NCBI GenBank assembly: GCA_016218915.1
Contig: JACRCQ010000074.1
Coordinates: forward strand, 186,001-250,000
Direction: 5' to 3'
From: Deltaproteobacteria bacterium
GTDB lineage: Bacteria > Myxococcota_A > Polyangia > Polyangiales > Polyangiaceae
DNA: 64,000 nt
Made by a program: the position numbers and the translations under genes. The stretch's first letter is position 1. Each line of letters starts with the position of its first letter. The notes under the pieces are model-generated. The model was not told the DNA's origin, did no database searches, and saw nothing but the letters and a program-made list of their open reading frames with translations. Shown one piece after another: positions 12,306-15,240 of this stretch.

Positions 12306-13349
12306 CTACGTCCGAACCTGCAGGCGCGTGCAGTACGGATTGTCGACCGTGGTGCCGGTTGCGAGCCAGGCCATGCACGTGCACCCTGCGCGGCATATCC
12401 CGCCGAGCTCGCAGCTCGCGCACGCGCCCCGCAGCGATGCCCGCTCGAATCCGCGATTGTAGGAGAACGCGCCCGGAGCACTCCAGATCGTGGCCAGCGA
12501 CTGGCTCCGAAGATTGCCCTCGTCGAATTCGGCGGGCATCGCCAGACACCCGCGCACGGTGCCATCCGAGGTGATCGCCACGGCCTGCAAGCCCGCCTGG
12601 CATGCGGCCCAGACCTTGGTGCCTGACCGGTTGCCTGTTCGAAGCAGCGGCTCGTTTCTGCCGTACCAGCCGATCGTGTCTGCTGCGATCACGTGCATGC
12701 GTCCCTGCGAGACTGCTCGGACCACCTGCTCCTCGAGGCCGGCAATCGCCTCAGGCCCCAGACAGATGCTCTTCGGCGTGCGACCTGTGGGGAGGGTCAG
12801 CTGGATCTGCCATCCCTCGAAATGGGCGTGTGCCAGCAAGTCGTGGGTCGCGCTGAGCTCGCCCAGGTTTCGCTGGTTCACTTGCGTGACTGCGCCGATC
12901 CGCACGCCTTGCCTTCGCAAGGCAGCGGCTCCATCGAGGGCACGTCGCAGCGCTCCGGCGCCCCGCAGGGAGTCGTGCACTTCGGGCGGACCGTCGATCG
13001 AGAAGCTGACCGACTCGAATCCGGCCGCTCCGATCCTCTCTGCTTGCGCGCAGGCGGCCAGGCCGTTGGTGATCAGGTCGATTTTCATGCCTGCCGAGCG
13101 GATCGCGACGGCGATCTCGAACCAGTCGTGGCGCAGCAGCGGCTCGCCACCGGACAGGGTCACGATGGTGCAGCCCATACCTGCGAGCTGCGCCACCACG
13201 TCAAGTGCCTCTTTCGTCGACAGCTCCTGGGATCTTGCGTGACCGGCGTCAGACCCGCAATGCTCGCACGCCGCATTGCAGGCGAGGGTCAGCTCCCAGA
13301 CGCACACGAGGGGAACAGGCCGATCGGGGATGGTGGGAGAGCGGGTCAT
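12306..13349 (-). CDS. Radical SAM/SPASM enzyme, third gene of the coupled operon
   Basis: A 347-residue protein. The radical SAM cluster motif is CNAACEHC (Cys24, Cys28, Cys31), followed by SGGEPLL in the SAM-binding region. The C-terminus has a SPASM-type Cys array: a first Cys pair around GTVRGC, then CxxC, GGICRAGC and a final PYC, which should bind auxiliary [4Fe-4S] clusters. SPASM enzymes usually modify peptides or proteins (thioether or C-C crosslinks, formylglycine, epimerisation). Its ATG lies inside the stop of the preceding SPASM gene (ATGA, 13346-13349), so translation is coupled. It is a clear paralogue of that neighbour: both end in CRAGCT(C/S)MA...TGT...DNPYC. The substrate is not known; the Cys-rich operon partner is the obvious candidate. 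Confidence 0.93.
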   Translation of the reverse strand: MTRSPTIPDRPVPLVCVWELTLACNAACEHCGSDAGHARSQELSTKEALDVVAQLAGMGCTIVTLSGGEPLLRHDWFEIAVAIRSAGMKIDLITNGLAACAQAERIGAAGFESVSFSIDGPPEVHDSLRGAGALRRALDGAAALRRQGVRIGAVTQVNQRNLGELSATHDLLAHAHFEGWQIQLTLPTGRTPKSICLGPEAIAGLEEQVVRAVSQGRMHVIAADTIGWYGRNEPLLRTGNRSGTKVWAACQAGLQAVAITSDGTVRGCLAMPAEFDEGNLRSQSLATIWSAPGAFSYNRGFERASLRGACASCELGGICRAGCTCMAWLATGTTVDNPYCTRLQVRT

Positions 13350-14407
13350 CGCGCCCGCTGCACGCAGTACGGGTTGTCGTAGATCGTCCCCGTCACGGCG
13401 TAGGCCATGGAGGTGCAGCCCGCGCGACACACCTGGCGGAAAGGACACGCGGCGCATTCTCCGACCAGCTTCGACTCGTCCCATCGCGTGTTGTAGGCGA
13501 ATCGGGCTTCATCCGCCCATAGATCGGCGAACGATTCGTTGCGGAGGTCTCCAACGACGAAGGAGTCCGGGTGCGTGGGGCACCCTTTGACCGAGCCATC
13601 GGATTGCACGCACACGGCGAGGCACCCTGCCATGCAGCCAGTGAAGAACGTGCTCATGCCGCCCACGGCGCGACGAATCACCGGCTCCTCGCGGGCGTAG
13701 TAGCCGATGTTGTCGGCAACCATCAGCTTCACGCGGCCATCGCGCGCCAGCGCTGCGAGCCTGCGGTGCAGGTCGCCGAGGGATGCGGGGTCGATCAGCA
13801 TGGGCGAGCTGCATTGCAGGAGCCTGCCCAGCGGAAACGCGAGCTGCACCTGCCAGGCTTCCACTCCCATCTCCGCGAGCGATTCGTAGATCGCCTCGAG
13901 CTCGCCCAGGTTGCGGCGATGGATCTGCGTGATCACCGCGGAGCGCAAGGGAGATCGCACGATCCGTTCGAGCCCGGCCATCGCCTGATCGTAGCGAGAC
14001 CCCACCGCAGAAGGTGACACGCGAACCCAGTCGTGCACCTCGCGCGTTCCGTCGATCGACACCGCCACTCCGCCAACGCCGACCTCGACCATCTTCGAGA
14101 TCGCTGCATCGTCCAGCAGCAGGCCGTTGGTGACGACCTTGACCAGCATGCCGTGGCGCGCGAGCCTGGCTGCCACCTGATCCCAGTCGGTGCGGAGCAA
14201 GGGCTCTCCGCCGGTCAGGCTCACGTCGATGCAGCCTGCCCCGGCGAGCTGGTCGGCGATGCGCAGCAAGTCCTGGGTGTCGAGCTCGCCGGGTCTCGGC
14301 GTCCCTGCGCTCACCTCGCAGTGGCGGCAGCGCAGATTGCAGGCGGTGGTGATTTCCCACACGCAGGTCCGCGGGACACGTTTGACCAACGACGGCAGAG
14401 GTCTCAT
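13346..14407 (-). CDS. Radical SAM/SPASM enzyme, second gene of the coupled operon
   Basis: A 353-residue protein with CNLRCRHC (Cys23, Cys27, Cys30) for the SAM-binding [4Fe-4S] cluster, TGGEPLL, and a C-terminal SPASM array (CMAGC...GSVKGC...CAAC...QVCRAGC...PYC). It overlaps both neighbours by four bases: its ATG sits in the stop of the 278-residue gene (14404-14407), and its stop overlaps the start of the other SPASM gene. Two related but diverged SPASM enzymes in one transcript suggest two successive or distinct modifications of a shared substrate, or a heteromeric maturase. Anaerobic sulfatase-maturation-type activity is a less likely alternative, since no sulfatase is seen nearby. Confidence 0.93.
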   Translation of the reverse strand: MRPLPSLVKRVPRTCVWEITTACNLRCRHCEVSAGTPRPGELDTQDLLRIADQLAGAGCIDVSLTGGEPLLRTDWDQVAARLARHGMLVKVVTNGLLLDDAAISKMVEVGVGGVAVSIDGTREVHDWVRVSPSAVGSRYDQAMAGLERIVRSPLRSAVITQIHRRNLGELEAIYESLAEMGVEAWQVQLAFPLGRLLQCSSPMLIDPASLGDLHRRLAALARDGRVKLMVADNIGYYAREEPVIRRAVGGMSTFFTGCMAGCLAVCVQSDGSVKGCPTHPDSFVVGDLRNESFADLWADEARFAYNTRWDESKLVGECAACPFRQVCRAGCTSMAYAVTGTIYDNPYCVQRAR

Positions 14408-15240
14408 CGCTTGGGAAGGGTCACACCCCTGTACGGCTTGGGCATCGAGCACAGCGTACCGTTGAGGAATGCGTCCTTGACCTTGGCGTAGTCCGAGTTG
14501 AGCTGCGAGGTGTCGTACTGGCAGCACTCCATCATCAGCTGCAGCTCCTGCGCGATCTGCTGCGGCGTTCCGGCGGCGAACAGCTCGGTCAACCCCTGAT
14601 CCCAGCTCGCGTTGAGCCCGGAGAAACAATAGCAGAGCGAGGACTTCTGGGCGTCACCCAGCTGGGACGAGGCAAGCGTGTCGAACAGCACCGATTCCTT
14701 GTCGAGCACGCAGCCGTTGGCCCACCCTGCGTCGACCGGTTGAGCGTCCTTGCCTGCCTCCGCGGCTCCATCCTTGGAGGCGTCTGTCGCCTGCGAATCC
14801 GCGCTCGCGTCGCTCGGAACGGACTGCGTGCCGGTCTCCACATTGCCGCCGCATCCTACCGCGACCCAGCCGATCAGCAGGAAGGCGCCGAGCACCGGAG
14901 CCGCGAGAGGACGCGTGAACGCACGCCAGGTGCCAGGATCCGGCTTGTCAGGAAGCGAGCTTCGCAGCTCGGCGATGAGGGCTTCGAGATTCCAGGAGCG
15001 CAGCAGCTCCGCATCGCGCGTCGGGAGCCGGTCCTGCTCGGAGGCAGCCTGGATCACGGACGCGATCAGGTCGCGAAGAGCGGGCCAGAACGCGGAATCG
15101 GCGCGCCGTTCGGCGAGCAGCGCGTAGAGCCGGCCATAGGTCTCATCGAGGCTGGACCACGGTTCGACGTGCACGCCTTGGGCGGCGAGGAATGCGCGGA
15201 CGCGGTGGGTGACCGTTGCGGCGAGGGCAGGGCGTTGCAT
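14404..15240 (-). CDS. Cys-rich single-span membrane protein heading the radical SAM operon (candidate substrate)
   Basis: A 278-residue protein of unrecognised family. Residues 1-110 are soluble and mostly helical. Residues ~111-129 form one hydrophobic span ending in VGCGG. A low-complexity Asp/Ala/Ser linker runs to ~170, and a compact C-terminal domain holds six Cys (177, 203, 205, 239, 240, 264), including CYC and ECC. The VAVGC sequence looks like a lipobox, but it sits at residue 130 with no internal Met before it, so it is either an internal signal-anchor or a start-site puzzle. Being first in an ATGA-coupled operon with two SPASM enzymes makes it the likely substrate or scaffold. The gene is divergent from the MYXO-CTERM gene across 53 bp. 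Function is inferred only from context. Confidence 0.8.
   Translation of the reverse strand: MQRPALAATVTHRVRAFLAAQGVHVEPWSSLDETYGRLYALLAERRADSAFWPALRDLIASVIQAASEQDRLPTRDAELLRSWNLEALIAELRSSLPDKPDPGTWRAFTRPLAAPVLGAFLLIGWVAVGCGGNVETGTQSVPSDASADSQATDASKDGAAEAGKDAQPVDAGWANGCVLDKESVLFDTLASSQLGDAQKSSLCYCFSGLNASWDQGLTELFAAGTPQQIAQELQLMMECCQYDTSQLNSDYAKVKDAFLNGTLCSMPKPYRGVTLPKR

Follow-up and report, generated by a model that had tools for sequence, protein, structure and literature searches.

What do two radical SAM/SPASM enzymes modify when they are encoded next to a protein of no recognised family, and at which residue? The question is raised by a three-gene operon (A, B and C) on the reverse strand of the window, meaning here the whole stretch of 64,000 nucleotides analysed (Table 1). 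An earlier note on this DNA had proposed that A, a large membrane-tethered protein, is the substrate of B and C and that its six Cys are their target.

Table 1. Features of the A-B-C operon (window positions)
Feature	Position	Strand	Basis
Gene A, lipoprotein-like substrate candidate, 278 aa	14404..15240	-	no Pfam or NCBIfam family
A residues 1-104, N-terminal helical domain, predicted cytoplasmic leader/recognition	14929..15240	-	AF2; conserved in 13 homologues
A residues 112-130, hydrophobic span and lipobox-like AVGC (C130)	14851..14907	-	equivalent in 19/19 A
A residues 177-264, helical six-Cys domain, lineage-specific	14449..14712	-	AF2 pLDDT ~85
27-residue helix L..LF..G.PE.IA..LE.M, common to short and long A	14518..14598	-	profile search
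A residues 270-278, YRGVTLPKR, predicted modification site	14407..14433	-	tag conserved in 19/19 A
ATGA overlap, stop of A / start of B	14404..14407	-	
Gene B, radical SAM/SPASM enzyme, 353 aa	13346..14407	-	Pfam, tree clade, fold
ATGA overlap, stop of B / start of C	13346..13349	-	
Gene C, radical SAM/SPASM enzyme, 347 aa	12306..13349	-	Pfam, tree clade

Gene set and homologues of A

The coupling of the three genes by two ATGA overlaps, already remarked in the earlier note, is borne out at both junctions. The operon holds no additional gene; its neighbours code for a beta-lactamase-family hydrolase, an alpha-amylase, a protein without assignment and an IgGFc-binding-type protein, and neither transporter nor protease genes were found among the flanking genes inspected. 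The window belongs to contig C54 of a 9.2-Mb genome (G000), where two further A-B-C sets lie on contigs C73 and C5. Since the set recurs twice elsewhere in this genome and also in other genomes, its arrangement is not due to chance. Four A-type proteins are encoded in the window genome, three next to their own B-C pair and one solitary. The C73 protein (236 aa) has no Cys domain, and the C5 protein is a lipoprotein-like product of 93 aa (MMRSDRRPALAKSVGVAAAFGAALAPGCSSS...APAYKGVTFT). The solitary representative, an A-like lipoprotein of 122 aa on contig C50 (G000:C50:145376-145744; L242 9.4-9.9 kb), ends with PLYKGVSF, has no SPASM gene within ~9 kb and may be a substrate served in trans by enzymes encoded elsewhere in the genome. 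It was detected with the C5 protein as query through a match covering residues 13-81; because this match excludes the tail, the C50 ending is an independent confirmation of the C-terminal tag described below.

Homologues were searched in 184 order-level genomes, 379 phylum-level genomes and GTDB contigs, and many of those found stem from draft metagenome-assembled genomes. The A-type proteins amount to 19: the four of the window genome and fifteen from other Myxococcota or Myxococcota-like genomes, which adjoin B-clade enzymes. Every B locus found carries a neighbouring A gene, mostly immediately upstream with a spacing of 0-50 bp. The enzyme adjoining A in genome G353 is of C-type according to the tree, and B sits on a neighbouring contig piece; at another locus (L161 2726-8610, G314:C63), three tandem A genes are followed by three SPASM genes, two of B-type and one of C-type. 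Genome G433 encodes two A-like proteins, recovered with the A profile, that end with DDGYGTH and DDGDGTH, keep the Cys and lack Y-x-G-V; the 6 kb inspected contain no SPASM gene, which fits a co-occurrence of Y-x-G-V with the enzymes. Genome G398 is an unexplained exception to this pairing of tag and enzymes: its A-like protein, encoded convergently with a B/C-clade SPASM gene, retains the Cys and ends with DDDDDDDDH, with no Tyr in the tail. Weak matches to the A profile (E 1e-9 to 1e-5), spread over many genomes of the phylum, span only the hydrophobic/acidic linker and were rejected as composition matches.

Architecture of A and its C-terminal tag

The earlier description of A as a 278-residue protein with a helical N-terminus, one hydrophobic span and six C-terminal Cys (C177, C203, C205, C239, C240 and C264) is correct in each element, as is its lack of a recognised family, with zero matches in Pfam and NCBIfam. 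A Foldseek search against the PDB gave no structural relative below E 3.7, and no enzyme-like domain was found in A. What had been overlooked is a seventh Cys, C130, lipobox-like and at the end of the span, together with the terminal YRGVTLPKR. AF2 assigns pLDDT >90 across residues 11-60 of the N-terminal domain, and predicts the linker following the lipobox and the C-terminal tail to be disordered. All 19 A proteins carry a lipobox-like Cys after a hydrophobic stretch, as called by an in-house hydropathy scan, not SignalP. The 27-residue helix is a possible enzyme-docking element; its profile, built from the A sequences themselves, matches only the four A genes in the window genome and gives ten strong matches in the phylum sample, every one an A protein.

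The motif Y-[K/R/A/L]-G-[V/A] occurs near the C-terminus of every A protein (19/19), with its Tyr 5-14 residues before the end and Val at the last position in 18. By comparison, only four matches were found in the last 25 residues of 1063 other coding-like ORFs from the same loci, and two of these are one additional A gene counted twice. In the A protein of WGAH01000416 the tag comes straight after the lipobox (...SLTAC-YKGVTPEA), so that the product of signal peptidase II would be a lipopeptide of just nine residues, consisting of the lipidated Cys and the tag; no other single observation points as strongly to the tag as the core of the substrate. A possible further type of tag was noticed at L071 (2826-3380), where two SPASM genes lie by a gene for a short, lipoprotein-like product in which HKYSAGVY / HRYSGGAY is repeated.

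The six Cys are not conserved among homologues: the whole domain is present in 12 A proteins and missing in the other 7, including those of C50, G054, WGAH, C5 and C73, the last two beside B-C pairs. Cys-centred chemistry was therefore rejected for the family as a whole, and A departs from sactipeptide and ranthipeptide systems, where conserved Cys would be expected in the modified region of all substrates. The substrate role proposed for A gains from its presence beside B-clade enzymes at every B locus found, but the Cys lose their place as targets with the absence of their domain beside some B-C pairs. A is very probably a substrate of the SPASM enzymes, though not via its six Cys.

Relationships of enzymes B and C

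That B and C are two paralogous radical SAM/SPASM enzymes is confirmed by Pfam (radical SAM, E 1e-22 and 2e-19; SPASM, 3e-7 and 2e-8) and by their 41% identity, the duplication being old. Both carry CxxxCxxC and B also the full SPASM Cys pattern, as is characteristic of radical SAM/SPASM maturases, and the nearest solved folds to B are SkfB and PqqE. Neither A nor B nor C matched an RRE or PqqD domain. Among NCBIfam models, TIGR04103 (nif11-class peptide radical SAM maturase 3) scores best for each enzyme, at 225.8 bits for B and 243.0 for C, far under the curated cut-off of 725. TIGR03913 comes second (225 and 201 bits; cut-off 591.75), TIGR04133 gives 159 and 133 bits (cut-off 425), and A has no match to TIGR04134.

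A careful tree, with reference enzymes included and PlpX itself left out, recovers a B group (90/93) and a C group (76/65) in a joint clade (93/95) that also includes the G398 pair. A first quick tree had drawn C closer to the XYG enzymes, a position rejected with the careful tree; we are moderately sure that B and C belong together. Their sister clade contains enzymes adjoining XYG-rich partners, some of them in the window genome: single SPASM enzymes beside, or fused to, XYG-rich lipoproteins (YGIP, LYGLPP), as well as enzymes of the GDL-motif type, paired with PYGPA peptides, and of TIGR04103. Among the latter, a cyanobacterial enzyme of Nostoc sp. C057 is 39% identical to C and adjoins a Nif11 peptide ending with LYGLPPELF. 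Throughout this part of the superfamily, SPASM enzymes recur next to Tyr-Gly, often carried by a lipoprotein.

Several related loci deserve mention in their own right. Single frames joining the enzyme to a hydrophobic span, a Cys and a multi-XYG tail (LYGLPP, YYGID) are found in the window genome at L020 5042-6541 (C21), L022 4546-6096 (C45) and L023 5144-6607 (C72), and fusions of the same build at L162, L171, L172, L060, L062 and L065; they are apparent enzyme-substrate fusions spanning the membrane, and the C72 tail has LYGLPP in common with the Nostoc Nif11 peptide. Acidic double-disulfide repeat lipoproteins (NF033662) with YGIP/YMAP/YAAP between the repeats lie by a single SPASM gene at L019 4412-5242 (G000:C58), L021 3647-4888 (C27), L036, L050 and L059. 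Lipoproteins of this family with KYGIP or YAAP are also encoded at L243 (G000:C71:54000-71000) and L244 (C64:1-12000), with no SPASM gene in the stretch, and a C23 repeat protein (L239) has neither a SPASM neighbour nor KYGIP/YAAP-type motifs. Finally, in two distant genomes (L164 6538-7776 and L058 4402-5685) a gene resembling L,D-transpeptidases by eye comes after a related SPASM gene.

Putative modification of the tag and known systems

We consider it rather probable, from the features described above, that B and C change A at the tag Tyr in the cytoplasm, before export and lipidation at C130. On the disordered tail the enzymes would target the Tyr of Y-x-G-V and would find it through the helical N-terminal domain, the L..LF..G.PE.IA..LE.M helix or both. 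The internal signal-anchor would then direct A to export and the ordinary lipoprotein machinery would lipidate it at C130, giving a protein that is anchored to the membrane or the cell surface and has a chemically modified tail. The second enzyme may share the reaction or make a second change. Modification is placed before export because B and C have no signal peptide. Against this scheme, a lipobox placed after an N-terminal domain of ~100 residues is a non-standard lipoprotein signal, and the G398 A-like protein has no tail Tyr despite radical SAM enzymes of the B/C clade.

We infer chemistry centred on the Tyr of Y-x-G-V from the kinship of the enzymes, and a splicease-type excision of tyramine, with loss of C8H9NO (135.0757 Da), is the leading candidate, albeit a tentative one. 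Against a splicing-type model stand the scores of B and C, far under the TIGR04103 cut-off, the order Y-x-G instead of X-Y-G and the lack of a PlpY-like RRE. Room for another reaction at the same site of the same substrate, for example a Tyr-Val C-C crosslink, an oxidative decarboxylation or an epimerisation, maybe in two steps by B and C, is given by the additional residue separating Tyr from Gly, by the conservation of Val and by the presence of two enzymes. Such a reaction is rather unlikely: the Val kept in nearly all tags, unlike XYG motifs, the separate clade of B and C outside the XYG enzymes, the pair of enzymes suggesting two steps and the precedent of mycofactocin MftC, which decarboxylates a peptide Tyr and joins it to Val (PMC8326336), argue for it, but the closest relatives whose substrates can be recognised work next to Tyr-Gly motifs. 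A three-residue cyclophane (triceptide) at the Tyr was rejected, as position i+2 is Gly, without a beta carbon, in 19/19.

The tail could instead be a docking or sorting tag only, with the enzymes acting on another protein or a small molecule. Short C-terminal tags can indeed serve as sorting signals, but the operon offers no alternative candidate substrate, close relatives of the enzymes adjoin or are fused to multi-XYG tails, and one A member is hardly more than a tag after a lipobox, all of which makes this reading improbable. Modification of the six-Cys domain, by a thioether or similar, is very unlikely: some SPASM enzymes do make thioethers, and the window protein and most homologues have the domain, but the A proteins of C5, C73, G054 and WGAH lie beside enzymes without it, the tagless A-like proteins of G433 and G398 retain their Cys, and these could form plain disulfides once exported. 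A more ambitious extension of the Tyr-tag reading, which we regard as doubtful, is a two-enzyme backbone rewriting of surface lipoproteins, in which B and C would together turn Y-x-G-V tails into reactive (e.g. keto-amide) ends on several lipid-anchored substrates of one cell, in trans, with a nine-residue lipopeptide as the smallest in one relative; the products could serve as membrane-anchored protease traps.

The preferred modification of the tag Tyr would be a little-studied decoration of bacterial surface proteins, including members without conserved Cys. For an unstudied SPASM branch it offers a defined site, a single Tyr within a short tag at the C-terminus, and the A family is a natural set of substrates of widely differing size. 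If confirmed, it would link radical-SAM chemistry to the bacterial lipoprotein pathway, a link shown only for MNIO enzymes in the literature searched, and may give a short leader-free C-terminal tag for placing reactive groups on proteins. As spliceotide products are reported as protease inhibitors, in a report cited in PMC11117315, a surface-anchored form would suggest a role in defence or predation in myxobacteria.

SPASM-lipoprotein pairs (by their NCBIfam names), spliceases and MNIO lipoprotein RiPPs are already known; the A family, the Y-x-G-V tag, the paired enzymes and the domain preceding the lipobox were absent from the libraries and literature searched, with a possible overlap with Scott et al. 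2022. Taken strictly, the operon belongs to none of the splicease, TIGR04133/TIGR04134 and DAG-RiPP families. PlpX cuts out tyramine at XYG (PMC11002830, PMC10533398), and PlpXY acts also on tags within larger proteins (PMC10533398). The A-B-C set resembles these systems by its best NCBIfam match and its Tyr-Gly-centred tag, and the LYGLPP core of the Nostoc TIGR04103 locus is that of the XYG-tail SPASM fusions of the window genome. It differs by a tag near the C-terminus, by the absence of a Nif11 leader and by its two distinct SPASM enzymes, and none of the three splicease hallmarks (TIGR04103 cut-off, XYG in the substrate, RRE partner) was found.

The Bacteroidales TIGR04133 and TIGR04134 pair, named in NCBIfam with its function undescribed there, also has a SPASM enzyme by a small lipoprotein, whose Tyr-Gly (ACYGTP, PEYGMP) lies at the lipobox or shortly behind it, but with one enzyme, no N-terminal domain and YG on the N-side of the mature protein; the TIGR04133 enzymes form a separate, more distant clade in the careful tree (100/100). 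A large membrane-tethered substrate, considered unusual in the earlier note, is so with respect to classic RiPPs, but less so given these already named lipoprotein substrates and the RiPP substrates of protein size or lipoprotein type that have been published with a different enzyme family (PMC12636315). The TIGR03913 GDL-motif maturases and DUF1843 peptides share PYGPA/PYGAG in the partner peptides; these are short and not lipoproteins, there is one enzyme, and B and C score below the cut-off. The DAG-RiPPs, hybrids of RiPP and lipoprotein (DybA/DybH, NedABC; PMC12636315), have MNIO enzymes acting at Cys motifs, in a survey that mined MNIO clusters only and states that other kinds may exist. 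Some of their substrates exceed 30 kDa, a C-terminal motif alone can guide the enzyme on such >30 kDa proteins, and cytoplasmic modification of MNIO-modified lipoproteins can come before lipidation (PMC12636315). The A proteins resemble them in a lipobox precursor with putative cytoplasmic modification at a short C-terminal motif, and the hydropathy scan places the hydrophobic stretch and lipobox Cys upstream of that motif in 19 of 19.
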